Shown here: in pieces, positions 21,790-51,034 of the stretch
Position numbering within the stretch: position 1 is the stretch's first letter
Layout of the letters: each line of letters opens with the position of its first letter
Source: a virus
Virus record (IMG/VR): IMGVR_UViG_3300015241_000018
Location: 1-51,415 of that record
Length of the DNA: 51,415 bases
Reading direction: 5' to 3' (one strand)
Program-made: the position numbers and the translations under genes
The notes under the pieces: generated by a model
Told to the model about the DNA's origin: nothing
The model's database searches: none
The model's input: only the letters and a program-made list of their open reading frames with translations

Positions 21790-21801
21790 ATGAGTATAAC
21801 A

Positions 21802-24286: not shown

Positions 24287-24288
24287 GA

Positions 24289-31850: not shown

Positions 31851-32404
31851 TAACCAGTTCCGTATCCAGAGGGACTACCACCACCCATTAAGCTTCCACC
31901 CATTGCACCAATGTTCTTACCAAAGCCACCAATGATTGGGCCTGCTTTAATTAGAGCACCACCGAGAGAAGCAATACCTTGGTCAGTAGCAGCCTCACCT
32001 CCAAGGGATGCTAGTTGTTCTTTATGTCGACTAATGTCAGCGTCAATGCCAAAGATGTTTTGACCAATCTGTAGGTTCTGACTTATATTTTTAGAATTGA
32101 GCAAACCTTGATCTGTAGCTTCAGCTTGTCCACCTTGTAAACCTGAACCAAACTCAGCTCCTTGCGAAGTAGCAGAAGCTAAACCTTGAGCTCTAGCTTT
32201 CTGTGCATTACGAAAGTTCTCCATCTGGGCTCTACTAGCTTCTAATTGCATCTGTTGCTGTTTTTGTTCATTAACTTGTTGTTCATCTGCAGAAATAGCT
32301 TGGCTTTGTTCGGCTTGAGCTTTAGCATTAGATGCTGCGGATAAGCCACCGAAGAGTTGCATACCCAGACCAGCTATGCCTAAACCTATTGTAATTGGAT
32401 CCAT
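31850..32404 (-). CDS. Internal virion protein, T7 gp14-like, 184 aa
   Basis: Matches gp14 in size (196 aa) and order. An N-terminal hydrophobic segment (ITIGLGIAGLGMQLFGGLSAAS) is followed by a Gln/Ala-rich coiled coil (about 28-75) and a Gly-rich C-terminus with another hydrophobic stretch. Family members leave the virion first and build the outer-membrane pore. SD-like AAGGTACATA precedes the ATG, which overlaps the upstream stop (TAATG). Confidence 0.75.
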   Translation of the reverse strand: MDPITIGLGIAGLGMQLFGGLSAASNAKAQAEQSQAISADEQQVNEQKQQQMQLEASRAQMENFRNAQKARAQGLASATSQGAEFGSGLQGGQAEATDQGLLNSKNISQNLQIGQNIFGIDADISRHKEQLASLGGEAATDQGIASLGGALIKAGPIIGGFGKNIGAMGGSLMGGGSPSGYGTG

Positions 32405-34740: not shown

Positions 34741-35036
34741 TAATCTTGGACTTCTACAATCTCAATATTGCGTTTAGCAAAATATGAACCAGCATGATTA
34801 AGTAAACCTTTAAAGCTAGTAAACTTACCTTTTAAAGGTTCAGGTAAAACACCACCCTGCTCATATTTGAAACTCCACATAGTGGTTGGGGGATCGAGTA
34901 CGGCACGTATTTTATTATCACCGGTAAATATTCTAGTATCGACATTACCAGTACCTAGTTTAGGATTTACTTTACGCAATACAAGAATTCTATCTTGACT
35001 ACGCATCTTGCTTTCTGGGCTATCCATTGGAAGCAT
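34740..35036 (-). CDS. Hypothetical protein between tail tubular genes, 98 aa
   Basis: Lies between the adaptor and nozzle genes and overlaps both (17 bases upstream; TAATG downstream). GAGGATGGG precedes the ATG. Basic protein with PPTTMWSFKYEQGGVLP in the middle. A minor virion or assembly protein is inferred from position only. Confidence 0.6.
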   Translation of the reverse strand: MLPMDSPESKMRSQDRILVLRKVNPKLGTGNVDTRIFTGDNKIRAVLDPPTTMWSFKYEQGGVLPEPLKGKFTSFKGLLNHAGSYFAKRNIEIVEVQD

Positions 35037-36156: not shown

Positions 36157-36524
36157 TATTTACGTCTCCAGACATTGAGAGCAAGGTTGCCTAATAGGAA
36201 AGCAAAGGCTGCTCCTGGAAGATAGGCTAGAGAGGGTGGGTAAGGAGGTACTTCAAAATATAACCAATTCCAATGGCGAACCACGATAGTATCCCAACCA
36301 ACAATACCAGCCCAAGCCACCGGGGGTAAAAGTAAAGCATCTCTAATTAACCTTATACCGATATCATCTCGAGTAGCATCAATAATAGAAGTAGAAGCCT
36401 TCATAGCTTCTACATCTACTTTACCATCGATTGTATACTTACCAAGTTCTGTATCTTGCCACTTCGAAAAGATGGAAGTTATACCTTGGATAATGGGCCC
36501 GATTAAGGGAATCCAACTAAGCAT
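36156..36524 (-). CDS. Holin-like membrane protein, 122 aa
   Basis: I use ATG 36524 behind GGACGGGATAATA. Hydrophobic segments at about 3-17, 60-76 and 92-115 suggest two to three membrane helices, as in 3TM holins. A charged loop contains TRDDIGIRLIRDALL. Its place beside the endolysin supports a lysis role: forming membrane holes at the end of infection. Final identity is not certain. Confidence 0.6.
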   Translation of the reverse strand: MLSWIPLIGPIIQGITSIFSKWQDTELGKYTIDGKVDVEAMKASTSIIDATRDDIGIRLIRDALLLPPVAWAGIVGWDTIVVRHWNWLYFEVPPYPPSLAYLPGAAFAFLLGNLALNVWRRK

Positions 36525-36810
36525 TATTATCCCGTCCATGGGCTACCCAAGTTACAATACCCAGAGCAGCTAAACCAATTGTGAAGGATTTAGGTAAGTC
36601 CATCTCACCTAAGTAACCCTTAATAGTAGGGTCACTTACGTAAGAATGCATTTCACCTAGTGTAAGGAGAGTGGCTCCTGAGAGGGCTTGTGTCCATCCT
36701 AGGAACTTAGTCCAGCTCTTATACCAGACAGCCTTAAGCGGCTGTAGGAGTAGATCCAGTGAGCTTGTCTTTGAGGGTTTTAATTTCGTTTTGCGCATTT
36801 GAAAGATCAA
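36517..36810 (-). CDS. Membrane protein of the lysis region, 97 aa
   Basis: A TTG start at 36810 has GGAG 6 nt upstream, while the in-frame ATG at 36798 has none, so TTG is preferred. A basic N-terminus (RKTKLKPSKTSS) is followed by two hydrophobic helices (about 35-55 and 72-90). Could be a holin or antiholin partner of the neighbouring membrane proteins. Confidence 0.6.
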   Translation of the reverse strand: MIFQMRKTKLKPSKTSSLDLLLQPLKAVWYKSWTKFLGWTQALSGATLLTLGEMHSYVSDPTIKGYLGEMDLPKSFTIGLAALGIVTWVAHGRDNNA

Positions 36811-37006
36811 TCTTTACTCCGGCCATACCTCGGCCCTTGACGTACCATCCGAGGCCAGCACCAACCATGGCACTAACAGCAGAGGCGATTACAGAATATA
36901 ACATGGGGACTCCATTTTGAATGTATTGGATTGCAGGTTTAAGGGGCTCAACAACCTGAGCTGCATGCTTTGCATGCGGGACTACTTCCATGAGTAGATC
37001 GGTCAT
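36734..37006 (-). CDS. Membrane protein with coiled-coil tail, 90 aa
   Basis: One strong transmembrane helix (about 34-57, MLYSVIASAVSAMVGAGLGWYVKG), then a helix DLSNAQNEIKTLKDKLTG. The layout resembles an inner-membrane spanin or a holin accessory, but no outer-membrane lipoprotein partner was found. Overlaps the next membrane gene by 77 bases and the endolysin stop by TAATG. Confidence 0.55.
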   Translation of the reverse strand: MTDLLMEVVPHAKHAAQVVEPLKPAIQYIQNGVPMLYSVIASAVSAMVGAGLGWYVKGRGMAGVKIDLSNAQNEIKTLKDKLTGSTPTAA

Positions 37007-37629
37007 TATTTACCTTTATTTGCGTACAGATGAATGAGTGTTCCAACTACCAGGGCAAGTACGCCGGCACCGATGAGAACTGCATTTTGATGTGCGTGAA
37101 TGTATTGTGAGAAGGTAACACCTGTACCAGCGATTACTGTACCAGCAACTGGACCAGCTACGTTATTCCTCGTGGCTAGAACTTTACTATAAGCTCTTAC
37201 GCCGTCCACTCTCTTTGCCCAACCCTTACCAAACGTAGACCATGTCGACAGTGACTTTAAGAAGGCCATACGTTCGTCATTAATAGCGTCTATTAGTTCA
37301 GTACCTGACTTCGATTTAAACCGCTGTAGAGCCTTCCTAGGGCGTCCTAGCCCACTATTGACGCCGTAATCGAAACAAGTATAATCAACACCAGAGGGAA
37401 GATCACTACAACCCAAAGCATCCCAGTACTTGGCTCGGTAAATCGATTTGGCATCTTCCACCTTCATTTTCCTGACATCATTAGCCGTACCTTGTTTATT
37501 GATATACTTTTGATAGTCGGTAAGAGTGATTCCAAAGTTAGTAGGACCACCGGGATCAAGAGGATGATTGCTATATCCACCTTCGTCCTTGAGAAGTCTG
37601 TCCAAACAGTCATTAAAATTTGATTTCAT
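37006..37629 (-). CDS. Endolysin, GH108-type N-acetylmuramidase with C-terminal membrane helix, 207 aa
   Basis: Cleaves the glycan of peptidoglycan at lysis. Residues 3-150 match the GH108 family: LLKDEGGYSNHPLDPGGPTNFGIT with catalytic Glu16 in the EGGY motif, IYRAKYWDALGCSDLP and FDYGVNSG. The usual enzyme ends near residue 160. Here a hydrophobic helix (about 182-201, NAVLIGAGVLALVVGTLIHL) follows with a Lys end, suggesting membrane tethering. SD AGGTAAATT before ATG. Confidence 0.9.
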   Translation of the reverse strand: MKSNFNDCLDRLLKDEGGYSNHPLDPGGPTNFGITLTDYQKYINKQGTANDVRKMKVEDAKSIYRAKYWDALGCSDLPSGVDYTCFDYGVNSGLGRPRKALQRFKSKSGTELIDAINDERMAFLKSLSTWSTFGKGWAKRVDGVRAYSKVLATRNNVAGPVAGTVIAGTGVTFSQYIHAHQNAVLIGAGVLALVVGTLIHLYANKGK

Positions 37630-37636
37630 AATTTAC

Positions 37637-38956
37637 CTATTGGTTACAATATTCTGTAATAATTACCACTCCAGCAGATCCTGCTCCACCAGTTCCAGTG
37701 GTAGCACTATTATTACTTAATGATCCAGCTCCTCCTGATCCATAAGCAGCAGCAGCTCCACCATTAGTCGATCCAGTACCACCGAAAGATCCTAGTCCTC
37801 CTCCTCCGAAAACAGAAGAACCACCATTACCTCCAGCTAATTGAATAGTTAGAGCCGTTGCAAATAAACCACAATTACCCGGCATTCCAGCTGAAGCTAT
37901 ATCACCAGCTCCTGCTGTTGCTCCTGCCCCACCACTAGGCGCTGCTCCAGAGTTTGCAACTGCACCTCCAGAACCTCCGTTAGCAATGCAAAGAACGCCT
38001 ACACTAGTAGCTGAACCATTACCACCTGAAAGACCAATACCACCTGCGCCTGCAGTTCCTATTGTGACTGCTTTAGATGCTCCGATAGTTGCAGTCGTAG
38101 CTAATGTTCTAGAATAGCCTCCCGAACCTCCGCCTCCTCCTGTAAAGAAGTCCGCGACTGTACCTACGGTTCCTCCTCCACCTGCCCCACCACCAACACA
38201 TTCAATGTTAGCAAAAAGCATTCCTGGGGAAGGAGTATAAGTACCACTTGCAGTAAATACTTGTTTCTTAACAGTTACAACTGCTCCTGTTGAACTATTA
38301 GTTCCTCCATTTGCAATTGGAAGTATTCCAGTTACACCAGTCGTTAAGGGTAAACCTGTTGCCCCCGTTAAAGTACCGGATGCAACTGTACCAAGAATAG
38401 GTGAAACTAAAGTAGGAGATGTACTGAGAACTACATTGTTTGTTCCTGTAACTGCAGTAAGCTGTGTGCCATTCACCTTTAAAACATTACCTGCACCAGC
38501 AGTATCGAATGTCTTATTAATTAATGTATCTGTAGAAATTCTAGACACTAAAGAACTAGCAGCTGCGGGAACTGCAAGATCAGCTCCATTATTAATAACA
38601 GGAGTAATTACTTTAGGAGTGGTTACACTCGTGGCAAAGTTAGGATTAGCAATGGTTGAGATTATTAGACCACCAACATTTATATTAGTGCCGCTGGTAT
38701 ATACCCCTAAACCACCGTTGATATTAATTTGATCTTGGAGTCTTAAAGGAGAATTAGCCGTGCCTGGAGCAGGTAGATTTACAATCTGGTTACCATTCAT
38801 ATCCAAATTAGAACCCATCTGATCAGGAGTTGTTCCATCTCTAGATAAGGTATTATCAAATGCTGTTTGCAGAGTAGCATTATTAGCATTAATAGTAGCC
38901 TGAGCTGTGGTAAAATTAGTTAAGTCAGCTACGTTGTTTAAAGTTATTTTACTCAT
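37637..38956 (-). CDS. Tail fibre/adhesin with glycine-rich C-terminus, 439 aa
   Basis: ATG 38956 overlaps the stop of the preceding spike gene (ATGA); eight upstream codons are less likely coding. Residues 1-80 (SKITLNNVADLTNF, NTLSRDGT, SNLDMNGNQIVNLPAPGT, RLQD) closely copy the N-terminus of the spike at 38953. The middle is a Thr/Ala/Val repeat shaft; residues about 210-439 form a Gly-rich domain (VGGGAGGGGTVG and similar) typical of fibre tips that contact the host. Probable receptor-binding protein. Confidence 0.75.
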   Translation of the reverse strand: MSKITLNNVADLTNFTTAQATINANNATLQTAFDNTLSRDGTTPDQMGSNLDMNGNQIVNLPAPGTANSPLRLQDQININGGLGVYTSGTNINVGGLIISTIANPNFATSVTTPKVITPVINNGADLAVPAAASSLVSRISTDTLINKTFDTAGAGNVLKVNGTQLTAVTGTNNVVLSTSPTLVSPILGTVASGTLTGATGLPLTTGVTGILPIANGGTNSSTGAVVTVKKQVFTASGTYTPSPGMLFANIECVGGGAGGGGTVGTVADFFTGGGGGSGGYSRTLATTATIGASKAVTIGTAGAGGIGLSGGNGSATSVGVLCIANGGSGGAVANSGAAPSGGAGATAGAGDIASAGMPGNCGLFATALTIQLAGGNGGSSVFGGGGLGSFGGTGSTNGGAAAAYGSGGAGSLSNNSATTGTGGAGSAGVVIITEYCNQ

Positions 38957-40785
38957 GGATTTATTGGTCTCCATGTCCAAGTAGGTGCCACACTATATGT
39001 AATAGCGATTTGATCCCCCGGACTTAGTACTGCGGATATGCCGCTTCCAGTACCTGTTGCAATTTGTTGGGATGCTCCAATAGTAGCTGTAATAACATTA
39101 ATTGAAGTTACAGTACCTCCTATGATATAGGCCTCCACCGTTACATAACTAGTATTAGTTACAAAGGCAGTCGAAGCAGGAACTGATGGAGCATTGATAT
39201 TAGGAATCTGCGCAAGACCTCCATAAAGATTATTAGCTACTCTTATAAGGGTCGTAGTAGTTCCTACAAAAACTGCAGATGCTAATGAAGGTGCATTACT
39301 AGAAAATATATTACCTACAACACTTACTTGAGTTGCACCGTTTATGGAAACTGCTGGTACTGTCGTATTATTAAAATCATATAAGAAGGTGTTTCCCGTT
39401 ATAGAAACACCACCAATCCACGAAGGTATAGTAATACCTGCGGTCATGGAGACTCCTATATTAGTGAAGAATTCATTGCCTGTAATACACCAACCACTAG
39501 CAGAGCCTTGTGAAGAAGCATTAGGTGTAAATAGAATTCCTATAACAGTTCCCTCAATAGAATTGTTTGAAATAAGTCCGGGAGTCATTGTAAACGGAAC
39601 TCCTAGGTTTTGAGGAGAAATCTGGATGCCATTCTGAAAGATTCCTGAAGCACCTCCATTGATCTTATTATTACAAATCTTAAAACCGCTGCCAGATAAA
39701 AGCAGTATTGCAGTAGTTCCTTGAGTACCAAACATAGTACAATTCATAATTACAGGATCTCCAGCAACTGCCGATGTAGTTGATCCTGAATAGTTTATGG
39801 TACTGTTATTCTTACAAGTAATACATGCTGCATTATAAGCGAAGAAGATATTATCAAAAGTAAAACTTACCATATCAAAAGCTTGAATACCTAATCCAGC
39901 ATTATTGATATAAACATCTCTAACAATAGACCCTGTACTTGTTCCTATTCCAGATATAGAACCTAAGAAAGCTATTGCTATTCCGGTATTACCAATGGGT
40001 GAAACTGGATACGTAAGATGAAGTTTTTCAATACTTATTGGATCTTGGGTAGCACAGTTGAATATATTAACATTAGCAGGAGCTACTATGACACTACCTT
40101 TAAAACCAGTGCTTCTTAAATCATAAGCATTGGCTGCATAAAGACTAGGAGCTTGAAATCCACATCCCATTATTACACAATGGGCAGTTACGTTTAACTG
40201 AGCAGTTATTTTGTAAGTGCCTGCTGGAAAGAAACAAGTTCCTCCTATGGCGCATGCTGCGGTAAGAGCAGCTTGAATAGCCACAGTATCATCTGCTATA
40301 CCATTACCTACTGCACCAAAATCAGTAACAGTATAATATTGATCTAACAGCTTAGAATTGATAGTTCGAGCAACGGCTCCTACACCTGTTTGTGTAAACG
40401 GAATAACAGGAAGACCTGTGAAAGTAGGGGAAACAGACTCTACTACACTGCCAGATCCAGTAACAGCAATACCACCGAAGGTACCGCCATTATTAAATTG
40501 TATCTGTCCTGAAGTTCCTCCAGGAGTATTGTTGACAGTAATAGGTACGCCAGCAGCAACATCCTGAAGACGTGCTGCAGAGTTTATTGTAGACGGTGCT
40601 GGTAGGTTGAGAATTTGATTACCATTCATGTCTAGGTTGGAACTCATCGGGTTAGGAGCAGTTCCATCCCTAGACAGAGTATTATCCATTGCAGCTGTTA
40701 TTACTGCATTGTTAGCATTGATAGCGTTAACCGCCGTAGTTTCATTTTGGAGATTAACAAGATTGGTTAACGTTATTTTAGACAT
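38953..40785 (-). CDS. Tailspike with pectate-lyase-like beta-helix, 610 aa
   Basis: N-terminal anchor shared with the gene at 37637 (about 1-80). YTVTDFGAVGNGIADDTVAIQAAL (about 150-173) is the start signature of phage pectate_lyase_3-type beta-helix spikes. It is followed by about 300 residues of Asn/Gly/Ile-rich repeat coils (NSIEGTVIG, GNEFFTN, GNTFLYD) and a C-terminal beta domain. Likely binds or cuts a surface polysaccharide; catalytic residues not identified. Confidence 0.82.
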   Translation of the reverse strand: MSKITLTNLVNLQNETTAVNAINANNAVITAAMDNTLSRDGTAPNPMSSNLDMNGNQILNLPAPSTINSAARLQDVAAGVPITVNNTPGGTSGQIQFNNGGTFGGIAVTGSGSVVESVSPTFTGLPVIPFTQTGVGAVARTINSKLLDQYYTVTDFGAVGNGIADDTVAIQAALTAACAIGGTCFFPAGTYKITAQLNVTAHCVIMGCGFQAPSLYAANAYDLRSTGFKGSVIVAPANVNIFNCATQDPISIEKLHLTYPVSPIGNTGIAIAFLGSISGIGTSTGSIVRDVYINNAGLGIQAFDMVSFTFDNIFFAYNAACITCKNNSTINYSGSTTSAVAGDPVIMNCTMFGTQGTTAILLLSGSGFKICNNKINGGASGIFQNGIQISPQNLGVPFTMTPGLISNNSIEGTVIGILFTPNASSQGSASGWCITGNEFFTNIGVSMTAGITIPSWIGGVSITGNTFLYDFNNTTVPAVSINGATQVSVVGNIFSSNAPSLASAVFVGTTTTLIRVANNLYGGLAQIPNINAPSVPASTAFVTNTSYVTVEAYIIGGTVTSINVITATIGASQQIATGTGSGISAVLSPGDQIAITYSVAPTWTWRPINP

Positions 40786-41258
40786 TACATATAGACCACG
40801 TAAGCTTCAGAACCAGGGGTTACATTCGTCAAACGAACGAATATAGTCTTAGCTCCTGCAATTGCAATAACCTTTGCACCAGCAGTTACGTTAGTATCAA
40901 ATGTGCCTCCAGTTCCTGTACCAATGGTAGAAGTACCAGTGTTAGCAGAGAACTCAAATGCAACCATGTCACCAACGTTAGCACCAGCTGAAGCAGTATT
41001 GACGCCTGCTACTATATTAGCAGCGGTATCAAGAGTGACTGTTGCACCTGCACTATTATTAACAACAATGCCCGTAAGCATATTTGCAATAGTTATAGTA
41101 AACGAGGTGGAAGTATTACTCAGAGGAGCGTTTCCGTTACCCCAGAGTTGTTTGAAGCCTGCACCACCTGTAGCCGCAGCCGTCATAATATTACGACAGA
41201 TAATGTCGTTACCGGATAGATCAACTACCCGTTCTTTAGCAATATAAGGTACCGCCAT
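40785..41258 (-). CDS. Virion protein, beta-rich, 157 aa
   Basis: Ala/Thr/Gly/Val-rich beta protein (TSFTITIANMLTGIVVNNSAGATVTLDTAAN) with a GTGTGGTFDT turn region, between capsid and tail-fibre genes. Head decoration or fibre-base protein is inferred from composition and position. Its stop overlaps the spike start (TAATG). SD AAAAGGATAAATAA before ATG. Confidence 0.55.
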   Translation of the reverse strand: MAVPYIAKERVVDLSGNDIICRNIMTAAATGGAGFKQLWGNGNAPLSNTSTSFTITIANMLTGIVVNNSAGATVTLDTAANIVAGVNTASAGANVGDMVAFEFSANTGTSTIGTGTGGTFDTNVTAGAKVIAIAGAKTIFVRLTNVTPGSEAYVVYM

Positions 41259-41282
41259 TTATTTATCCTTTTAAGTAAGAAT

Positions 41283-41300
41283 AGGGGAGCGTCCTCCCCT
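41283..41300 (-). terminator. Hairpin with weak T-tract after capsid module
   Basis: Perfect 7-bp stem AGGGGAG/CTCCCCT with a 4-nt loop, directly after the gene at 41307 on the - strand and followed by ATTCTTACTT. Probably a partial terminator that lowers expression of the genes that follow. Confidence 0.6.
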
Positions 41301-41306
41301 AAACTA

Positions 41307-42023
41307 TTACTGACTGATGTTACCGTACAGGGTATAACGAAGCCGAAGCTTAATCAGACCATTAGTAAATGCACCGGTTGCAATCGTAGAGATGTACGCC
41401 TTCTGAGGAAGGGGTACAATCGCATTCGTTACAAGAGGAACGGTACCAAGCCACGTAGACGCACTGCCTGCTACTGCAGTACCAGAAGCATCCCATGCCA
41501 GACCGGTAGTAGCACCGGGAATGGTATAAGTAGTCTTCTGACCTGAAGTAGTCATACGAGCAATTGGGAACGCGTTAAGAAGCTGCGTGCCCGCGTTCGG
41601 CGTAAGCTGAACGTACTGTTGTGGACTGTTAGGATTTATACCTGCAAGACCAACTGAGATGCTGGTGCCGCCAGTAGCGCCAATTATCGTATCAACTTCT
41701 ACAGACTCAAAGAAGAGCTGCGAAGTTGTAAACGTAATAACACCACCAGAGACAGTAGTCACCGGAGTAATCTGTAAGGGTACAATATCAGTTAAAGACT
41801 GAATACCAGCTGCGATCGGGGTCGTAGTTCCAACGAACGATGTCGGTGGAGCGGGAACCTGAATACCACCGACACCATTAGCCATGGGGACGAGTGGAAT
41901 AAGCTGTTCAATCTCACGAGTTTCGCCGTAGACGAGATAATCGCCTCCGACTTCTGCGATAGCCTTCTGCGTTCCGAATTGGAGCGGAAGACCATCTTGG
42001 TTAAGCCAAAAACCTGCTACCAT
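41307..42023 (-). CDS. Capsid-associated virion protein, 238 aa
   Basis: Directly follows the major capsid gene with its own GGAGAAATGAT ribosome site. N-terminus FWLNQDGLPLQFGTQKAIAEVGGDYLVYG, then Thr/Gly/Val-rich beta sequence through the end. Likely decorates or stabilises the head. No specific family recognised. A hairpin terminator follows. Confidence 0.6.
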   Translation of the reverse strand: MVAGFWLNQDGLPLQFGTQKAIAEVGGDYLVYGETREIEQLIPLVPMANGVGGIQVPAPPTSFVGTTTPIAAGIQSLTDIVPLQITPVTTVSGGVITFTTSQLFFESVEVDTIIGATGGTSISVGLAGINPNSPQQYVQLTPNAGTQLLNAFPIARMTTSGQKTTYTIPGATTGLAWDASGTAVAGSASTWLGTVPLVTNAIVPLPQKAYISTIATGAFTNGLIKLRLRYTLYGNISQ

Positions 42024-42034
42024 ATCATTTCTCC

Positions 42035-42994
42035 TTAGCTAGGCACAGCGGATGTGCTGGTAATGATAGTGACCATGTTTTCAGGGCGATAAAGCTTGAA
42101 ACCATATTCAGCGATTGTGAGGTATTCTTCTTGCTGAAGATCCTTATTGAACTCACTGTAAACAGTGGGCATCTGTCGGAATCCACCGATCCAAGGAACA
42201 GTGTCCCCGGGAGCTGCAGAGAAGAAATAGTTACATACGCCACCAGTTACCGTGATGCTATTGATCGTTTCCGATGCAATGGGCGGCAGGTAATTAGAAA
42301 CGTAGATATCAAAACCAAACACGTTGAAGCGGAACTTGAAACCAGTCATAAGACCGTCACGAGTCACGTCAGTCCACATCTGGACGGGCGAGAGCAAGTT
42401 AACGAGGTTAGCCTGAGTTGCAAGAGTATACGCGACGGATGGATCAACCACAGCGCACAGATTGGTCAGAGGAATATTAGCCTTAGTGAGGGCGTAATGT
42501 GCTCTAGCGAAATCGGAAAGCGTGATTGATTGTGTAACACCAGTAGCCACCCAACGATGGTCGGCGAGGTTGATGATGTTAGGGTTGCCTGCAATTTGTC
42601 CGGCATTCGCAACAGCGAATATCCGAGATTCAACGGCTTCCATCAGGGCGCGATGTTCGCGAGGTACAAACCTGGCAATAACATCGGAGCTGTAAAAGCT
42701 ATCGCGCTTAAACTTTTCGCTGATCGAGTGGGCAGAGTACTTGTACTGGTCGAAGGAGAAGGTAAAGTTACCTGTATCCATCGAGTTGTACTTGACTGCT
42801 TGATTTTCCATGAAATCTGCAGTTTCTGCTTCACCAATCGACGGAATATTAATCGTATAGCCATCGGGGAAGTCTTGAATAATTTTGACAAACTTCATAG
42901 CGTTCAGTTCATCCAGAAGAAGTTCCTTGATCTGTGTAGACCAAAGTTGACTCCTAATGAGATACTGATTATTGCTGTCTGTAAAACCAGCCAT
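42035..42994 (-). CDS. Major capsid protein, 319 aa
   Basis: Position after a scaffold gene, strong AAGGAGACTTCATT ribosome site and family pattern support this. The opening LIRSQLWSTQIKELLLDELNAMKFVKIIQDFPDG is a capsid N-arm. ALMEAVESRIFAVANAG is the long spine-like helix, and VNLLSPVQMWTDV and FKFRFNVFGFDIYVSNYLP are A-domain-like strands. Probable HK97 fold. Forms the icosahedral head. Confidence 0.85.
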   Translation of the reverse strand: MAGFTDSNNQYLIRSQLWSTQIKELLLDELNAMKFVKIIQDFPDGYTINIPSIGEAETADFMENQAVKYNSMDTGNFTFSFDQYKYSAHSISEKFKRDSFYSSDVIARFVPREHRALMEAVESRIFAVANAGQIAGNPNIINLADHRWVATGVTQSITLSDFARAHYALTKANIPLTNLCAVVDPSVAYTLATQANLVNLLSPVQMWTDVTRDGLMTGFKFRFNVFGFDIYVSNYLPPIASETINSITVTGGVCNYFFSAAPGDTVPWIGGFRQMPTVYSEFNKDLQQEEYLTIAEYGFKLYRPENMVTIITSTSAVPS

Positions 42995-43019
42995 AATGAA
43001 GTCTCCTTAAATTATTAAA

Positions 43020-43760
43020 TTAATTCTTAGGCAATCCGAACTCTTCACCGAGGTCAAGAGCATCGTTATGCATCTGAATTGCGAGTTTGGGGTCTAGATA
43101 GCCCCTGGGATCTTTCTTAAGCAGTTCCTGATAATAGTTGTAGTCTCGCTTCGGTTTTACCGGTGCAAAGCGGTCAGGCCTTACAGTAGAGCGGGGTGGT
43201 GCAAAACTATCAGTTTGACGATTTGGCTCGTCCAATCCGAATGTCTTTAGGAAGACAGTAGGATGATTCTTAGCTAGTTCGTCGGTAAATGCTTGGTCGA
43301 GTCCAAGTGTATCCATACGTTGTTTAAGGTTAGCTGAGGCATTATCGCCAAACAGTTCCTTTAACTTAGCCTTAACGAAATTGAAGTTCTCAGTCTGCTT
43401 AGTAGAACGATCCCGTTCAGTAAGTTTCTTTTCGAGAAGTGTTTCAATGTCTTCGGCTTTTAGGGAGGGCTGGTTTACAGGTTCTTTAAGGTGTTCTAGA
43501 TCCGTATCCGTGTTAGCAAGATTCTTCTTGTGTTGGTCTATAAGTTCTTGTAACGAAGCCTTCGTAGTGGCCTCTTCGCGTAGTTTGATGTAGTCATCTC
43601 TGACTGCGTCCATCCTAGCGTTCTGAGTCTTAATGTAGAGGTCTCCCTCTACCTTTGCTGCGAGAATTTCTTCCTTGGTTTTGTCTTTCCATTTATTGAA
43701 GAGTTCATCTCGGTCTTTGTTGGATTGGTTACCAGTGTCGTCTAATAGGCTGTCAGCCAT
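43020..43760 (-). CDS. Scaffolding protein, 246 aa
   Basis: Highly charged helical protein (Lys, Asp, Glu, Gln) directly upstream of the capsid gene. A long coiled coil covers about 45-125, then a Pro/Arg-rich linker (FAPPRSTVRPDRFAPVKPKRDYNYYQEL) and a short helical C-terminus that could touch capsid subunits. Directs prohead assembly and is expected to exit before packaging. Confidence 0.75.
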   Translation of the reverse strand: MADSLLDDTGNQSNKDRDELFNKWKDKTKEEILAAKVEGDLYIKTQNARMDAVRDDYIKLREEATTKASLQELIDQHKKNLANTDTDLEHLKEPVNQPSLKAEDIETLLEKKLTERDRSTKQTENFNFVKAKLKELFGDNASANLKQRMDTLGLDQAFTDELAKNHPTVFLKTFGLDEPNRQTDSFAPPRSTVRPDRFAPVKPKRDYNYYQELLKKDPRGYLDPKLAIQMHNDALDLGEEFGLPKN

Positions 43761-43763
43761 TGA

Positions 43764-44018
43764 TTATTCCTTGTCTAGGTTAAGTAATCGTTTAATAGTT
43801 CTCAATGTGGATTTCTGTCCATTCACATGAGCCTGTTTGAAGTCCCAGTTGGGAGTATCATAATTCTTAGCGCTGATTTCAGCACTGTTCAAATCGTTCT
43901 CAGCTTCAGTCAGAATATCTGAAAGACGATCTAATATGTATTTAGAGGAGCGTAGACCCTTTTCGAAGTTGTCCTTCTCCTGTTGAGTAGATAAATTTCT
44001 GGTCCATGCAGTAATCAT
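43764..44018 (-). CDS. Hypothetical helical protein, 84 aa
   Basis: Between portal and scaffold, overlapping the portal stop by four bases (ATGA). Helical and charged (QEKDNFEKGLRSSKYILDRL, LTEAENDLNSAEISAKNY). Probably a small assembly factor or virion protein; function unknown. Confidence 0.6.
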   Translation of the reverse strand: MITAWTRNLSTQQEKDNFEKGLRSSKYILDRLSDILTEAENDLNSAEISAKNYDTPNWDFKQAHVNGQKSTLRTIKRLLNLDKE

Positions 44019-45895
44019 TGCGTTCCGATAGTCCCCGTCGGGGTTGCGTTAGCTGGAGGATTTCTCTGTAAGCCCAAACCCGGTTTGGCAGGAGTCGTAG
44101 GCGGCGGAGTAAATTGTCCAGTTTGAGGGTGTACGTCATAGTCTCCACCGATCCCGGTTGCTGTTCCGGCTTCTTGGTGAAGTTGCTCTTGCATAGCTTG
44201 TATATATCGTTGGCCATCTGCTTGTTCAGCCAGCTGTATGTACGGAGTAACAACTCCATAATCCTTGAGGTCAAATGTAGTTTCAAGTATCTTAGCCAGG
44301 ATAATCCCCGAGAAATGGGGAGATACGGTTTGCCAGAGGTTCGATCCCGTAAGCGCAGTAAGGTTCTGTACGAGCTCCGCTTGTTCAGCAAAGTGCCTAG
44401 CTCCAACAGGCTTAATTCGTCCAACTCCAGTAATGTCGTCGACTGTAAGAGTTTGGAAGGTAGTGATGTTGAGGTCATTATCAAAGACTCGGATTGAGGT
44501 TGAGCCCGCCAAGTTTCTCCGCGCTAGTTCAAGCATGTAGTTCAGAAGCTGTTCAAGCATCTCTGAGAATTGAAATATCTTATTCTGGAATAGGCGTGAG
44601 CTCGCATTCTCAAGACGCTGTACTTCGTACTTTGTCTTTTCACCTGGAGAACGGATACCCATGGCTTCTCTGGGGGCTCCCGCCATCTCTTCCATTTGAG
44701 TGGCTAGCTTATCAATCTCCATGTTGGATTGCATGATCTGCACTTCAGGTTGGACAAGTTCCACATCTCCTTCATCGGAGACAAAGATCTTCTCACCTGG
44801 TTGCCAAGTATATTCTTCTACGAAACCTTTGACCTTCTGCACTGGATAAGTCACTAGATCCCAGATATCGGCCTTCATATTCTCTACGTGGTCCATGCGA
44901 TACTGCATACCCACGAGATTATCTAGGGGACCCATGCCCCAGAGGTTATCTTGCTTTCGTCTCCACGGTGAGTGGACGATCGTAGGATACCCATAGAAAG
45001 ACGGATTAGGTTTATTATTGATCAATTTATGACGATCTACAACCGTAATTACACGATTCTTTTCAAAGGTGTCCTGATAGGGATCATACCAGTCGCCGTA
45101 GAAAGTAAGCACTTCCACCATGTCAGATTTCAAGTAGTCTCGGAAAGAAGTGAAACCGTCCATTGCATATAGACGATCCTTCTGTATCCAGTCTCCTTGG
45201 AAATTCTGCGCGTGGAAGCGTATTTCTTTTATATAACCGTAAAGCTTTTCATATTCTTTTTGGTTCTCATCTGTAGACAGACGTTCTAGATGTTCTTTAA
45301 GCTCCCCAAGAGACAAGATAGTTCTTATAATCTTGGGAGACTCCATGAAGTTCTCTGAAGTCGGATTAAAGACGATGTCTAGAGGGCTGATGCGTCTAAT
45401 GGCCGGACCAACAAAGCCAGTCTGTGTTTTGTCAGATTGTTCTACTCTTTGGTCCATCCATTCGACTGTGGCAAAGCAATTACCGAAATCGATGTAATCT
45501 TGTACTACTTTCTCAATCTCAGTCTTAAATTGAGGTTGATCGAGCGCCCAAGCCATGTAATTGACTATGGCGTCTCGTTTAGCGACTTGACTCGAGTCTA
45601 GGTTATCGGCTTCCCAGACGAGCCACTTTCTCTTGGGAAATAGAGTTGCAATGTAGTTCGCAAAGAGATTATCCCGGATCTGACATAGTTTTGGTATTGT
45701 AGTTTTGTTTTTCCAAGGTAGTTGTGAATTTGTAGTTTGAGTTGTGTCAGTTGCATAAACGTATCTCCGAACTTCCTCCCAGGCGTCCTTCTTGACCTGA
45801 CGCAAGGTTTCCCACTGAATATACTTCTCTGTGATCTTTGTAGCCAATAAATCAGGAGAAATTACATTCTCCAGAGGCATTACCTTACCGGTCAT
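44015..45895 (-). CDS. Portal (head-tail connector) protein, 626 aa
   Basis: Forms the 12-fold ring through which DNA passes. Family-like parts are KRKWLVWEADNLDSSQ, RRISPLDIVFNPTS, a central KPNPSFYGYPTIVHSPWR segment, PREAMGIRSPGEKTKYEVQRLENASSRLF and a Gln/Pro-rich tail. Longer than T7 gp8 (536 aa). It follows the terminase genes and precedes scaffold and capsid, the usual order. ATG overlaps the stop of a small gene (TAATG). Confidence 0.85.
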   Translation of the reverse strand: MTGKVMPLENVISPDLLATKITEKYIQWETLRQVKKDAWEEVRRYVYATDTTQTTNSQLPWKNKTTIPKLCQIRDNLFANYIATLFPKRKWLVWEADNLDSSQVAKRDAIVNYMAWALDQPQFKTEIEKVVQDYIDFGNCFATVEWMDQRVEQSDKTQTGFVGPAIRRISPLDIVFNPTSENFMESPKIIRTILSLGELKEHLERLSTDENQKEYEKLYGYIKEIRFHAQNFQGDWIQKDRLYAMDGFTSFRDYLKSDMVEVLTFYGDWYDPYQDTFEKNRVITVVDRHKLINNKPNPSFYGYPTIVHSPWRRKQDNLWGMGPLDNLVGMQYRMDHVENMKADIWDLVTYPVQKVKGFVEEYTWQPGEKIFVSDEGDVELVQPEVQIMQSNMEIDKLATQMEEMAGAPREAMGIRSPGEKTKYEVQRLENASSRLFQNKIFQFSEMLEQLLNYMLELARRNLAGSTSIRVFDNDLNITTFQTLTVDDITGVGRIKPVGARHFAEQAELVQNLTALTGSNLWQTVSPHFSGIILAKILETTFDLKDYGVVTPYIQLAEQADGQRYIQAMQEQLHQEAGTATGIGGDYDVHPQTGQFTPPPTTPAKPGLGLQRNPPANATPTGTIGTQ

Positions 45896-45996
45896 TAGTG
45901 ATACCCAATTCCAAATAAGACATCTCTAAATGCCCAACCAATATAAGCTATTGCAGCTAGTAAAGCTAGGAATAAGACTGGGCCTACTAATCTCAT
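45895..45996 (-). CDS. Small membrane protein, 33 aa
   Basis: Starts inside the terminase stop (ATGA) with CGGAGGTGTGGT upstream and ends in TAATG at the portal start. Almost entirely one transmembrane helix (MRLVGPVLFLALLAAIAYIG). Function unknown; the good ribosome site supports expression. Confidence 0.55.
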   Translation of the reverse strand: MRLVGPVLFLALLAAIAYIGWAFRDVLFGIGYH

Positions 45997-46811
45997 ACCA
46001 CACCTCCGAATTTACCATGGTAATTCCATAAAGGAGTAGCACCTCTGCGTACATTGTAATAATTCATGGGAGGGTGTGCAAAATCTATTGCAGATGCAAG
46101 AGCATCCTTAACATCATCGTGAGCTGGGTTAGTGTAAAGCAATTCTTCCTCTAATACCTGGCAATTACCGGCTTGGTAGTGCCATATTTGTCTATTGGCG
46201 TATTTAGGTTCTAAAATGGAGAATATCCTCTCTTCCTTGGAACCAATCCAGCGAGAGGGTCTATATTCATCTACTGAAAGAGACAAACCATTAGGTCTGA
46301 TGTAGTTTTCCTTCAGATCGTCTACGATGACCTTCTGAGCTACGCTGACTTCGGCTCGTATCTTCCTGAAGCCCCATTTCTCATAGAGTTTCAGTATGTG
46401 TTGGAAATATTCAGATATTTTAGTAGTTCTGAAGCGATCTATTTCGAGAATATAATAATTATTAAGACCATCAACACCCAGTACCACAATACTAGTGTAA
46501 TCAGACTTTTTTCCTGTTGAATACGCAAAGTCAACGGATGCAACGATGTTAAGGCGTTCTCGCTTAAAGAACCAGGTGTAATCTTTACGGGACAGATAGT
46601 TCTGGTCGTAGTATTGGAATAAATCTCTTTGGATGGGGGACGAGTCCACATCATGTGGGTCGTTGTAGTATTGGGCCCTAAAGTGTATCTTGTTGAGGTA
46701 TTGAGCCCTCTTTTTAGCCAGAATGTCTGAGTCGAACCCAAACCATTTACCATCTGAGCGCTGTTGTTTTGGCCAGATGAACTGTCCTGTACCGTCTCCC
46801 GCGGTTTCCAC
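45993..46811 (-). CDS. Large terminase, C-terminal nuclease part (after in-frame TAA), 272 aa
   Basis: RNase H-like nuclease half of the packaging motor: NIVASVDFAYSTGKKSDYTS (Asp94, Asp104), a mid-domain acidic strand and HDDVKDAL (231-238) supply the metal site that cuts concatemers. It is in the same frame as the ATPase gene at 46815, separated only by TAA-CCT. The listed start is GTG at 46811 with no clear SD. So it is either a separate coupled subunit or the end of one protein made by read-through. Confidence 0.8.
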   Translation of the reverse strand: METAGDGTGQFIWPKQQRSDGKWFGFDSDILAKKRAQYLNKIHFRAQYYNDPHDVDSSPIQRDLFQYYDQNYLSRKDYTWFFKRERLNIVASVDFAYSTGKKSDYTSIVVLGVDGLNNYYILEIDRFRTTKISEYFQHILKLYEKWGFRKIRAEVSVAQKVIVDDLKENYIRPNGLSLSVDEYRPSRWIGSKEERIFSILEPKYANRQIWHYQAGNCQVLEEELLYTNPAHDDVKDALASAIDFAHPPMNYYNVRRGATPLWNYHGKFGGVV

Positions 46812-46814
46812 AGG

Positions 46815-47564
46815 TTATTCTTTACTCTCGAAAAGAGGCTCGGCTTTAACAACATTTCCGATTTCGTCGTATTCATCTACTTCCATCTCTAACAAACTGG
46901 AATACAAGTCCTTGGGGTGGTATCTAGTACCGACTACCCATTCGCGGGCATTGACAGTTTCAATAGAAGACAAGAGACTGTATTGATCTATAACCTTATT
47001 TCTTCCCTCTTCCAGATAGGCATTACTCTGGACTACGACGTCATCTAGGACCGCAATATCGCAATGCATGCCCACAATATTGGAGGTAAGGCCTGCAGTA
47101 AATATACTGGGATCGCGGATCGATTCCTCGCGTCTTCGCGGATGATCCAAGGATATTTCTCGTTCAGTCCACTTCTCTCGCTTCGCTTCTTCGGTGATGA
47201 CCATATCGGGCCAGTATAGGCGGTATACGTCATCAGTGAAGATATCCTTAATGAACTTAAGCTGCTTAGTAGCTAAATTTGATGTACTAGAAATGTATAG
47301 TACTCTGAGAGTAGGATCTCTAGTTAGTTCCCAAGCCACACGGTAAGCTATCAAAGCTGACTTCATGTGGTCTCTAGGTAACAATAATAGCTGGTGACTC
47401 TTGGATTTACCAGAGGTCCACCAGCTGATTACTTCTCTGTGAATATTACCTAGTAGACGTTTAGGATGTACTAGATTAATGAAACTTTCTAAGTTTGCTT
47501 CAGCTAGTTCTCTACGCTCTTTCCTTCGTAATTGTAAGTCAGAGAGGGGTTTCTTCTTAGGCAT
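46815..47564 (-). CDS. Large terminase, N-terminal ATPase part, 249 aa
   Basis: Translocation ATPase. Walker A variant LLPRDHMKSA (61-70) and Walker B DIAVLDDVV (169-177), followed by a coupling-motif-like WVVGTRYHP. Ends at TAA after EPLFESKE; the next sense codons continue the same frame into the nuclease domain. Together about 520 residues, a normal TerL length. N-terminus is basic (KKKPLSDLQLRRKERRE). Overlaps the upstream gene by eight bases. Confidence 0.88.
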   Translation of the reverse strand: MPKKKPLSDLQLRRKERRELAEANLESFINLVHPKRLLGNIHREVISWWTSGKSKSHQLLLLPRDHMKSALIAYRVAWELTRDPTLRVLYISSTSNLATKQLKFIKDIFTDDVYRLYWPDMVITEEAKREKWTEREISLDHPRRREESIRDPSIFTAGLTSNIVGMHCDIAVLDDVVVQSNAYLEEGRNKVIDQYSLLSSIETVNAREWVVGTRYHPKDLYSSLLEMEVDEYDEIGNVVKAEPLFESKE

Positions 47565-47841
47565 CGGATTTAGGTCTAATGGGAGACATTACCAATCCAT
47601 CTTTAGCGGCATTCCGAATACGGATGTCCCAAAGATCATTACTGATCCCTAGGAATCTGAAGTCATCGTGCTTTTCATGGTACTCTAGCTTCTCGAGAAT
47701 ATTCTTCTCGACTAGACCAATTCTCTCGTAAACCAAGTGACGGATCGAAGAGAACTGCCCCGATAACCACCAGGTCAGAGAGGACACTGCCGATACTACC
47801 GTAAAGATAATACCGAAAGTAGCCCATTCTGATCCGAACAT
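47557..47841 (-). CDS. Membrane-anchored helical protein upstream of terminase, 94 aa
   Basis: One transmembrane helix (about 8-28, TFGIIFTVVSAVSSLTWWLSG) and a soluble helical part (VEKNILEKLEYHEKHDDFRF). Similar short membrane proteins occur beside phage terminases, but I cannot give a function. It occupies the usual place of a small terminase yet does not look like one. Confidence 0.6.
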   Translation of the reverse strand: MFGSEWATFGIIFTVVSAVSSLTWWLSGQFSSIRHLVYERIGLVEKNILEKLEYHEKHDDFRFLGISNDLWDIRIRNAAKDGLVMSPIRPKSDA

Positions 47842-47843
47842 TG

Positions 47844-48143
47844 TTAGACTGCGGGTGCTACGGGCGTGTTAGCAGTAACGGCAGCCTGGATCTTAGCGGT
47901 GTTAGCATGGATACCATCAACCACGGCCTGAAGGGCGACGGGGTCATTGGCGGCCAAGGCATCCTTGAGTTGCTGGGCGATACCGTTCAGAAGAACGATA
48001 ATCGAATCATCAACGGTGCTTTCAGCAGCGACAGCTGCAGCGACATCTTGCATAGTAGCCATAATTGTATTTTCCTTTTGTATAATTTCTTTTAGAAGAC
48101 GAATAACATGATCGTCAGCGTGAAAGTAGTGGTGAATGTCCAT
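47844..48143 (-). CDS. Hypothetical virion-region protein, 99 aa
   Basis: Start ATG 48143 has GAGGAAGTAA in front. An internal in-frame ATG at 48062 also has AAAGGAAAATAC upstream, so a shorter 72-residue form is possible. The C-terminal two thirds are Ala/Val/Asp-rich helices (LLNGIAQQLKDALAANDPVA). A short N-terminal His/Asp patch (HHYFHADDH). Function unknown. Confidence 0.6.
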   Translation of the reverse strand: MDIHHYFHADDHVIRLLKEIIQKENTIMATMQDVAAAVAAESTVDDSIIVLLNGIAQQLKDALAANDPVALQAVVDGIHANTAKIQAAVTANTPVAPAV

Positions 48144-48407
48144 TTACTTCCTCAGGGTTGCTAGGTTTGATTTAGAGTTGTACTTATAGTCGGAAGTCTT
48201 GTGTTTAGACTTCTTGGCAGCCCTGTCTTTAGCGCGGGCACCGGGAGTCATAGCTCCCCTACGCTTCCCTTTGGCCGTAGCCGTCTGGGTACCCTTCTTA
48301 AGCTCGCCGTGCTTCTGTAGAGCAGCAGTGGCGATAGCGAAAGCAGAGGATTTCGATTTACCTTTAGCTTGAAGCTGCGAAACTAGGCGTTCAAGGATTG
48401 CAGGCAT
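48144..48407 (-). CDS. Small Lys-rich protein, possible DNA-binding virion factor, 87 aa
   Basis: Two parts: a helix (ILERLVSQLQAKGKSKSSAFAIATAAL) and a Lys/Arg/Ala-rich tail with MTPGARAKDRAAKKSKHK and DYKYNSKSNLATL. The same architecture is found in small phage proteins near structural genes. Could bind packaged DNA or be the missing small terminase; neither is shown. ATG overlaps the upstream stop (TAATG). Confidence 0.6.
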   Translation of the reverse strand: MPAILERLVSQLQAKGKSKSSAFAIATAALQKHGELKKGTQTATAKGKRRGAMTPGARAKDRAAKKSKHKTSDYKYNSKSNLATLRK

Positions 48408-49969
48408 TATGGTAGTGCGTTGATGCCATTGACGAACAGCGTTGCTAGGAATGGTTGGGTTGCATCAGTAAGATGCACGCCATCACCTGCTGTTGAGAAT
48501 GTAGCATAGGAACCATCAACACCTACGTGAGTATCCGTGTGAATAGGCATGTAACTATCGATATTGAGTGTATGTGCAGCATCCCAAGCAGAATCATAAG
48601 TTGCTCGATTAGCGATTGGATCTGCAGTTTCACTCGTGGAAGTACCCCAGCATGTTTGTAGATTTGGAATCAATTTTCTCGGTGCCAAATAAAGTTGACC
48701 ATTTGCTGTCGTAGTGTCTTGTTGATTGTGCCACTCAAAACCTGTTACTGCAGTCTTCTTTCCAATCAATGCAGGAATGGGATCTACCCAAGTCGTAGCA
48801 AGCGTCTTCATATTATTGAGCGAGATACCACCAACAGCAATGTTATGCCACTGTCCAAGCGATAGTCCCAAGGTTTGAGCGGCTAAATACGGTGCCTGAT
48901 GTACAGTATCGCTAGCGCCAACGCCTTGCGTAATACTATCACCGAAGAAGACGTTAAAGCGGGTCAATCCAGCCCATGGATATGGTTGCGCGTACTTGTC
49001 GCAAGCCCACATTTGCGCCTGCATGTACTGTGCTGGTGTAAGCGGTTTATTCCATACAAGGATATCAAAAATCTCAGCCTGACATGAGAAATTATTTCCA
49101 GCGTTATTCCCAATGGTAATGGTGTTTCCACCAGTTCCAATGGCAGTAGCCACAGACGATGATACCGCTCCTCCATTCACATAGAGCGATTGAAGAGCGC
49201 CTGACGAACTAAAAGTAGGCGTTGTGCTAAATGATGTCGAACCAAGAGTTGAAAATGCCGCTCCTGTATAAGGTATATTAATTACAGAGCCGAAACCGCC
49301 GCTAAAAATATTCACGTTCGTACCATTGGCAACATACATGTACGCATTACCACCTGCCGAAGCTGCTAATAGCGCCCCAAAGCCAGCCGTACCCAAAGTT
49401 CTGAACACGATAAGAGTCGTACAGTCTAGACTATCTATAGCTGTTTTCATTGCGCCGGGAGTGGCGATAGCAAGCCCACCATTGGCGTTAAACTTTACCG
49501 AGGGTTTTCCGTTTAGACGGTTCGTTGTATAGAGAGGCGCGGTACCAACAATGGTTCCAGCTACGATACTATTAACACTATCAGTCCAAGATGTAAGAGA
49601 AGAATTGTTAGTTTGAATTGGAATTGCATCAGCGCTAAAACGAGTAACCAAATTACCAAGCAGAGGAAGAGCAGTTCCAAATAAAGATCCAGAAACTACA
49701 TTTACTCTCTGAGCCCCATTGGTAAAAGGTGTACCTGATACGTATAGACTACCATCAGGAGCTCTAATAGGTAAAGCACCTATGGTAGGTGCAATAGCAG
49801 GAGTTACCCACCAAGCTCCGCAAGGATGGTAAGCACCTACATAAGTAGAACCAGTCGCTTTAACAACATTAATAGAACCATCAGCAGCGTATAGACCAGT
49901 ATATGAAGTACCTGGTACTACAGTTACATTCATAGATCCATCAGCTGCGTAGAAACCAGGAGAAGGCAT
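48407..49969 (-). CDS. Tail protein with LamG-like and SGNH/GDSL hydrolase domains, 520 aa
   Basis: Residues 1-80 hold YAADGSxNV-type repeats that look like an anchor. About 105-310 fit a LamG/concanavalin-like beta sandwich (VTRFSAD, INGKPSVKFNANGG-like, LYVNGGAVSSS, EIFDILVWNKPLTPAQ). From 338 an SGNH hydrolase begins: FFGDSITQG (GDS at 343-345, catalytic Ser345) and GDGVHL (Asp496, His499). Such domains remove acetyl groups from surface glycans. Inferred role: receptor deacetylation during adsorption. Confidence 0.8.
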   Translation of the reverse strand: MPSPGFYAADGSMNVTVVPGTSYTGLYAADGSINVVKATGSTYVGAYHPCGAWWVTPAIAPTIGALPIRAPDGSLYVSGTPFTNGAQRVNVVSGSLFGTALPLLGNLVTRFSADAIPIQTNNSSLTSWTDSVNSIVAGTIVGTAPLYTTNRLNGKPSVKFNANGGLAIATPGAMKTAIDSLDCTTLIVFRTLGTAGFGALLAASAGGNAYMYVANGTNVNIFSGGFGSVINIPYTGAAFSTLGSTSFSTTPTFSSSGALQSLYVNGGAVSSSVATAIGTGGNTITIGNNAGNNFSCQAEIFDILVWNKPLTPAQYMQAQMWACDKYAQPYPWAGLTRFNVFFGDSITQGVGASDTVHQAPYLAAQTLGLSLGQWHNIAVGGISLNNMKTLATTWVDPIPALIGKKTAVTGFEWHNQQDTTTANGQLYLAPRKLIPNLQTCWGTSTSETADPIANRATYDSAWDAAHTLNIDSYMPIHTDTHVGVDGSYATFSTAGDGVHLTDATQPFLATLFVNGINALP

Positions 49970-49972
49970 TAA

Positions 49973-50101
49973 CTAGGGAATCTTATTGAAGACATCAGGA
50001 ACATGGGAAATAGAACTATGAGTTCCAAAGGCTGTCTTCAAGTCCTTCTTGGGTTTCATCTTAGCTTTATCGTCTTTCTGAGGTTTATTACCTTTGCTCA
50101 T
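49973..50101 (-). CDS. Small Lys-rich protein, 42 aa
   Basis: ATG after AAGGAAATTCCATTA. The first 20 residues are Lys rich (GNKPQKDDKAKMKPKKDLK), the rest polar (THSSISHVPDVFNKIP). Stop is three bases before the next start. Its leader shares TTCATGGTAAGGAA with the gene at 50126. Function unknown. Confidence 0.5.
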   Translation of the reverse strand: MSKGNKPQKDDKAKMKPKKDLKTAFGTHSSISHVPDVFNKIP

Positions 50102-50125
50102 TAATGGAATTTCCTTACCATGAAA

Positions 50126-50302
50126 TTACTTTCTTTCATTCATTGAGCCTCCGTTAATACCCTTAACTTCTAGACCGAGTACCTGTATTCTTTCAGGAGG
50201 CATGTTGTTGGGGGAATGCTTCCTAGGATCTTGGGGGACACCATGGGCTACGCCATAGTCATCGTCACCAATGATCTCTGAGTTAGTATATTTCTCTACC
50301 AT
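50126..50302 (-). CDS. Hypothetical protein, 58 aa
   Basis: ATG downstream of TTCATGGTAAGGAATTTTCAGT, the repeated leader. Polar protein with DPRKHSPNNMPPERIQVLGL and a short basic end. Function unknown. Found by reading the strand directly. Confidence 0.5.
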   Translation of the reverse strand: MVEKYTNSEIIGDDDYGVAHGVPQDPRKHSPNNMPPERIQVLGLEVKGINGGSMNERK

Positions 50303-50336
50303 TTTACTGAAAATTCCTTACCATGAATTTGCATAT

Positions 50337-50441
50337 TTAGTATTTACCTTTATCTTTCTTCTTATCTTTCTTAGAACCTTCTTTGATTCCAAACTTCTTA
50401 TCCTTGGCCATATCGGCCTTCTTGGCAGTAGACATAGCCAT
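50337..50441 (-). CDS. Small Lys-rich protein, 34 aa
   Basis: Very basic (AKKADMAKDKKFGIKEGSKK, then DKKKDKGKY). AAAGGA is 12 nt upstream. Could bind nucleic acid. Short and low complexity, so confidence is limited. Confidence 0.4.
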   Translation of the reverse strand: MAMSTAKKADMAKDKKFGIKEGSKKDKKKDKGKY

Positions 50442-50457
50442 GTTTGTTATTAATCCT

Positions 50458-50565
50458 TTAACGATGGAGAAAAGAACCGATGAAGTTGAGGACGTTAGAT
50501 CCTACAATCCATCCCATTCCCATGAATAGACCCCAGAGAAACCAATCAATTGCCTTGTAGAACAT
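50458..50565 (-). CDS. Small membrane protein, 35 aa
   Basis: ATG follows AAGGGAGAAGCTATAA. Aromatic transmembrane helix (WFLWGLFMGMGWIVGSNVL). Overlaps the first late gene by 20 bases. Function unknown. Confidence 0.5.
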   Translation of the reverse strand: MFYKAIDWFLWGLFMGMGWIVGSNVLNFIGSFLHR

Positions 50566-50749
50566 TTATAGCTTCTCCCTTAATTATCTTAGACTTACTA
50601 AGTTCTTTCTTAGCTGTCTCTTCTGTAAGTAACTTCATAGCTTGCTGACCTAGAAGAATAGATAGAACTAAGATACCACGTTGATCTAGTCTTTCTATTA
50701 GAGCTTCTAAGGTACTTTCTTTAGGTACTATGGGTTTAATGTTTGACAT
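50546..50749 (-). CDS. First gene of the leftward operon, 67 aa, apparently leaderless
   Basis: ATG at 50749 lies six bases downstream of the -10 TATAAT, where transcription should start, so the mRNA would begin at or next to AUG. No SD is present upstream; the longer frame would cross the promoter. Helical protein (TLEALIERLDQRGILVLSIL, LTEETAKKELSKSKII). Function unknown; its position suggests an early product of the late strand. Confidence 0.65.
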   Translation of the reverse strand: MSNIKPIVPKESTLEALIERLDQRGILVLSILLGQQAMKLLTEETAKKELSKSKIIKGEAINVLQGN

Positions 50750-50771
50750 AGCACAATTATAAAGGTATTCT
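50743..50771 (+). promoter_or_regulatory. Rightward sigma70-type promoter, overlapping a leftward one
   Basis: TTGACA (50743-50748), 17-bp spacer, TATTCT (50766-50771). The start near 50778 gives a 20-25 nt leader with AAAAAGGA before the ATG at 50801. It shares DNA with the leftward promoter. Confidence 0.8.
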
Positions 50772-50784
50772 ATTGGCTTGTCAA
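50756..50784 (-). promoter_or_regulatory. Leftward consensus sigma70 promoter for the late operon
   Basis: On the - strand TTGACA (50784-50779), 17-bp spacer, TATAAT (50761-50756): a perfect match in both boxes. It points at the ATG at 50749 and is the only strong promoter seen ahead of the 28-kb leftward block. Confidence 0.9.
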
Positions 50785-50800: not shown

Positions 50801-51034
50801 ATGAAAATAGTTAAAGATAATAAACATCCGGAGATGTACAGATTAGACTGGGAAGATGGAACAAAGTCAGTTCCTTCACAAAATCCTAAGCCTTGGGCCA
50901 AAGGCGGTCACTACGGTTTTTACAATAAAACTAGGGCTAAAGAACATCTTCGTCGAGAAGGAATAGAAAACTACATCATCGGAAGAACCTACGATGCCCC
51001 TATGGCGCGATTAGAAGCCCGTGGGTGCGTTTAA
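50801..51034 (+). CDS. Hypothetical early protein, 77 aa
   Basis: First gene behind the rightward promoter, with AAAAAGGATATTACT before ATG. Basic, aromatic protein (YRLDWEDGTKSVPSQNPKPW, HYGFYNKTRAKEHLRREGI). Position just after a consensus promoter suggests immediate-early expression. Function unknown. Confidence 0.65.
   Translation: MKIVKDNKHPEMYRLDWEDGTKSVPSQNPKPWAKGGHYGFYNKTRAKEHLRREGIENYIIGRTYDAPMARLEARGCV

Follow-up and report, generated by a model that had tools for sequence, protein, structure and literature searches.

The promoter pair and the two genome arms

Between two oppositely transcribed arms of a phage genome lies a 42-bp stretch (50743-50784) in which two near-consensus promoters, one for each direction, are interlocked. 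The question raised by this locus is whether both promoters are real and, if they are, whether they make RNA polymerase choose between the two arms. The DNA analysed (hereinafter referred to as the window) is the whole virus record of 51,415 bases. The leftward arm (22652..50749, minus strand), which corresponds to the leftward block of 28 kb noted in the first-pass annotation, contains tail, terminase, portal, major head, and internal virion genes. The rightward arm (329..22422, plus strand) contains genes for primase-helicase, a CobS-like protein, DNA polymerase, exonuclease, and endonuclease. The rightward promoter (hereinafter R) reaches its arm across the circular join of the record, a gene order that was supported by relatives. 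In two of them, which are almost as long as the window (51,402 and 51,413 bases), the promoter pair was closely followed by a homologue of the far-left gene of the window. The primase gene of one of these two spans the ends of the record, which indicates a circular map in which R feeds the replication arm. In near-complete relatives, early-arm genes were also found across the pair, on its far side. Over the circular join, past the first small genes downstream of R, about 500 bp (51244-51415 and 1-328) contained no convincing gene, and about 1 kb lies between open reading frames near 17.1-18.1 kb.

The closest named relatives were members of Zobellviridae, with portal identities of 44-47% (up to 47% to ICP2-type phages); terminase identity reached 66% with Cobavirinae and similar phages. 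The window has homologues of the portal, terminase, and replication genes in the two opposed arms that are characteristic of Zobellviridae, and SIO1, ICP2, and CVT22 of this family share the homologous terminase and portal as well as the two-arm layout. The phage is Zobellviridae-like and comes from an uncultivated soil phage group. A nearest-DNA search of the window against phage records gave no match.

The large terminase gene contained an in-frame TAA (46815-46817, minus strand) between the parts encoding the ATPase (46815-47564) and the nuclease (45993-46811), and its homologue in the related locus L086 was a single uninterrupted gene for 525 amino acids. Candidate explanations for this stop codon are sequencing error, a genuine mutation, and a split gene. 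In addition, a 520-aa protein with a Laminin-G/concanavalin-like domain and, by eye, an SGNH-hydrolase-like stretch was encoded in the leftward arm (48407-49969, minus strand). It had few relatives in the viral collection and is probably a receptor-binding or sugar-cleaving part of the tail.

The promoter site reads TTGACATAGCACAATTATAAAGGTATTCTATTGGCTTGTCAA. R (50743..50771, plus strand) consists of a -35 box TTGACA (50743-50748) and a -10 box TATTCT (50766-50771), and the leftward promoter (L; 50756..50784, minus strand) consists of a -35 box TTGACA (50784-50779) and a -10 box TATAAT (50761-50756). Both were located by consensus scan and supported by relatives, and both conform to the sigma70 type (TTGACA and TATAAT with a spacer of 16-18 bp); with the sigma70 consensus assumed for the host, R matched at 10 of 12 positions and L at all 12. 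The rescan recovered the interdigitated boxes of the first-pass annotation, with spacers of 17 bp in both promoters and a 16-bp overlap (50756-50771) between the two -35 to -10 intervals. Along the plus strand, boxes of R and L alternate (R -35, L -10, R -10, L -35), and the two -10 boxes (50756-50761 and 50766-50771) do not overlap each other. The pair had been described as head to head, which is apt for the opposed promoters but not for their transcripts, since the predicted starts (approximately 50749 to the left and 50778 to the right) are 29 bp apart and the transcripts diverge. Each predicted start sits on or beside the -35 box of the opposite promoter, and the predicted +1 of R is a T. 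The first leftward and first rightward start codons are separated by 51 bp, and the promoters together with one ribosome site occupy this gap.

Chance expectation was assessed using 200 order-2 Markov copies of the window. Among opposed pairs with a span of 30-60 bp, only one in the window had at least 20 of 24 matches, and it scored 22. The mean number per Markov copy was 0.23 at a score of at least 20, 0.005 at at least 21, and 0 at at least 22. Moreover, L was the sole 12/12 sigma70-type site of the window and also the sole site on the leftward strand with at least 11 matches.

Probable competition between the promoters and a possible switch in time

We consider it probable that R and L are real, mutually exclusive promoters for the host housekeeping sigma factor, which serve as the main start for both arms and couple them by competition. 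With a polymerase bound one way, both boxes (-35 and -10) of the opposite promoter would be covered; each initiation would thus pick one arm, and the arms would be coupled through this competition. The predicted inability of opposing polymerases to bind together follows from the geometry and from published overlapping promoters, which exclude each other, with an increase in one direction repressing the other and with little competition where bidirectional promoters are weak (PMC12825309, PMC4207663). L, which leads into the structural arm, is expected to be the stronger of the two. Both are near the consensus, where competition should matter. We infer that transcription is bidirectional, that the promoters exclude each other, and that their coupling is under selection.

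Bidirectional promoters have been defined as having a -10 element in which the two promoters reciprocally overlap and divergent starts separated by 7-25 bp (PMC10268837), usually by 18 bp (PMC12825309; PMC10268837). The pair in the window falls outside this definition of Warman and colleagues, as its predicted starts are 29 bp apart and its -10 boxes are separate, but in our analysis it is built on the same principle, as a strong, wider-register form of bacterial overlapping divergent promoters. It resembles the bidirectional promoters in its short pseudo-symmetric DNA, its divergent transcripts, and the predicted exclusion between polymerases. It differs from them in that both -35 boxes are consensus, that the predicted starts are farther apart (approximately 34 bp in relatives with a 38-bp span), and that two entire arms of a genome meet at the site. 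As evidence against competition, the five E. coli bidirectional promoters that were tested were too weakly active at the basal level to compete (PMC12825309); the promoters of the window are nearer the consensus than these.

By themselves, the same 42 bp would set a fixed competition between the arms, and a switch in time would need a factor acting on one orientation, either to block or to boost it. The first-pass annotation had suggested a simple direction switch. The mutual exclusion on which this suggestion builds agrees with the geometry and with published systems (PMC12825309, PMC4207663), and the location between the arms was common to relatives. A true temporal switch, in which a phage or host factor would block R or boost L and so redirect transcription away from the replication arm and into the structural arm, is possible but doubtful. 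Besides the position between the arms and the mutual exclusion, it is favored by the precedent of pLS20, in which the divergent overlapping promoters Pc and Pr differ in strength and the polymerase itself acts as a switch, complemented by the dedicated regulator Rco, operators, and DNA looping (PMC4207663). The pair in the window is similar to Pc/Pr in that two unequal core promoters, one on each strand, overlap (by 16 bp), but no regulator was found. Neither the window nor eight near-complete relatives gave a match to HTH_3 above the cut-off or a match to Sigma70_r2 or Sigma70_r4_2, and a PHROG scan found no RNA polymerase or sigma factor among the open reading frames scanned. The family of single-subunit polymerases gave no match even in control genomes, and the negative result for an RNA polymerase therefore rests on the PHROG scans. 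Many early proteins belong to no known family and could supply the factor, possibly as a regulator of uncharacterized fold. Further evidence against the temporal switch is that no palindrome was present beyond the boxes, that the 51-bp gap leaves no spare DNA for an operator, and that the stronger promoter, a perfect consensus that would be active from the start, serves the structural arm.

Conservation of the pair and its gene starts in relatives

The boxes, their register, and the gene starts that match them were conserved in related phages. Approximately 150 related Zobellviridae-like viral loci were obtained by portal and terminase searches; the first rightward protein was unusable as a query, giving only a 9-residue match. 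Opposed pairs in these loci numbered 53 at a score of at least 21 of 24 and 25 at at least 22, compared with 1.7 and 0 in shuffles, respectively, although the raw counts of 53 and 25 are inflated by several loci from the same contigs and by ten that had been found by the pattern itself. Spacing was examined with distinct pairs from homology-fetched loci only, within 300 bp either way and with no preselection of spacing. Of the 49 distinct pairs with a score of at least 20, 12 had a span of exactly 38 bp, seven of 42 bp, and two of 43 bp, against a background of approximately 0.05 per bp, and the remaining pairs were scattered. In nearly all these pairs, genes of the leftward type lay downstream and those of the rightward type upstream.

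In an automatic survey with four boundaries corrected, an interlocked pair with a span of 36-58 bp was found at about 20 of 31 distinct arm junctions, and about one third of the junctions had no clean interlocked pair, boundary calling being rough. The corrected boundaries were those of L088, L090, L103 (a duplicate of L014), and L125, which were interlocked according to their locus context. Several relatives carried wider pairs (55-139 bp), and exact interlocking is thus not essential. In a tree of terminases, the 42-bp group to which the window belongs formed one supported clade, the 38-bp group was placed on neighboring branches, and spans of 49-139 bp were mostly found farther away in the tree.

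Within the 42-bp group, the four hexamers were 83-96% identical between members, and the other 18 bases 22-83%. Members of the 38-bp group retained a rightward -10 box at the correct spacing, with TA in 14 of 15 and the last T in 11 of 15. An arrangement that is kept while the surrounding bases change looks like a real control point, and the conservation of both sets of boxes suggests that selection keeps both promoters rather than a single promoter or an operator.

Genome compaction alone, by which ordinary promoters would have been squeezed together in a small genome and their exclusion would have no function, appears unlikely. It would be in accordance with an intergenic gap of only 51 bp and with spans that differ among relatives. 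The same genome, however, has room to spare in the two stretches of about 500 bp and 1 kb mentioned above, and spans of 81-139 bp in relatives make the transcripts overlap yet save no space. The spare DNA and these wide facing pairs make compaction alone not compelling, and the fixed spacing of 38 or 42 bp that many relatives share also argues against it.

The first leftward gene (50546..50749, minus strand; 67 aa) is predicted to be leaderless, with its ATG at +1, and homologues begin at the same place. The A of this codon lies on the predicted transcription start and the opposing -35 box (TGTCAA on this strand) gives the remaining bases of ATGTCAA, so that start codon, predicted transcription start, and opposing -35 box share seven bases. 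A predicted ATG at +1, 6 nt past the -10 box, was found in seven members (the window and the 42/43-bp relatives L084, L085, L088, L089, L165, and L078). L128 had the same leftward start as an eighth case but scored no strong opposing promoter. The first genes with ATG at +1 belonged to two unrelated families, characterized by LDQRG...GQQAMKLL and AHDWY..CCG..HC. Homologues of the first kind in the 38-bp group (L010, L014, L015, L019, and L147) had predicted starts at +8 to +12, and their ribosome site stands at the 5' extremity of the predicted mRNA. The first rightward gene (50801..51034, plus strand; 77 aa) has its ATG at +24, downstream of the ribosome site AAAAAGGA, and in the 42-bp clade the rightward gene had a normal ribosome site and a predicted start at +23 to +27. 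The leftward mRNA is accordingly predicted to be leaderless and the rightward mRNA to carry its ribosome site in a short leader.

The first rightward gene of L003 (4985-5329, minus strand) encoded a protein of the YspA/SLOG family, as indicated by a match to Pfam YAcAr tested on this locus. Those of L125, L140, and L093 were YspA/SLOG-like by sequence resemblance. The protein of this family possibly senses nucleotides.

It is improbable that only L works and that the boxes of R are a by-product of the ATGTCA start, of ribosome-site sequence, or of chance. R is the weaker promoter in the window (10/12) and has a T as its predicted +1, and in many relatives TGTCAA adjoins a start codon or a ribosome site. 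The rightward -10 box, however, has no coding role and was still kept at the right spacing, in the 42-bp group as in the 38-bp group, and a gene with a ribosome site follows within approximately 30 nt after R. An operator for a dimeric regulator or a part of an origin, with an accidental resemblance to promoters, would suit the 42-bp dyad formed by the boxes but is very improbable and was rejected, because all the symmetry resides in the promoter boxes (the other bases paired at 1-4 of 9 positions in the 42-bp group, the level expected by chance), so that the dyad reflects the promoters and not an extra operator, and because the 38-bp register keeps the promoters and alters the half-site distances.

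The exact 42-bp pattern was found in 11 stretches of viral contigs, five of them in the clade of the window (L156, L085, L157, L163, and L165) and the remainder in different viruses or in ones left unassigned; a Cro/C1-type gene accompanied one of these. In L160 (4834-5085, minus strand), a virus not recognized as a relative, the interlocked pattern was accompanied by a Cro/C1-type HTH gene with its ATG at the predicted +1 of one promoter, an arrangement resembling a lysogeny switch. In bacterial and archaeal genomes, 12 stretches with the exact pattern were found in 257 Gb, compared with a rough composition-based expectation of approximately 0.2-7, and the pattern is thus not a common bacterial element.

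Opposed promoters in other phages and the meaning of the series

At the junctions of the named or cultured Zobellviridae-type genomes examined, no interlocked pair was found at the threshold used. SIO1 and ctOsX528 nevertheless resemble the window in having a 12/12 promoter toward the structural arm. In SIO1, a perfect TTGACA-17-TATAAT occurred twice on the minus strand with a shared flank (8612-8584 and 37512-37484), toward structural genes. In temperate phages, the face-to-face promoters Pe/Pc of P2 and pR/pL of 186 show transcriptional interference and govern lysis versus lysogeny together with repressors. Some relatives with wider spans (e.g., L050 and L034) look similar to these, whereas the pair of the window is divergent and divides replication genes from structural genes.

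Taken as a tentative reading for a phage group in which no polymerase or sigma factor of its own was detected, the site may be a conserved orientation switch at which host polymerase chooses between the replication arm and the structural arm, with a start codon laid across the opposing -35 box. The relatives provide a natural series of strong opposed promoters, with spans of 38, 42, 43-57, and 66-139 bp, located where a single phage group has its main control point. With this series it can be tested directly whether competition between polymerases could by itself set the balance or timing between the halves of a genome.
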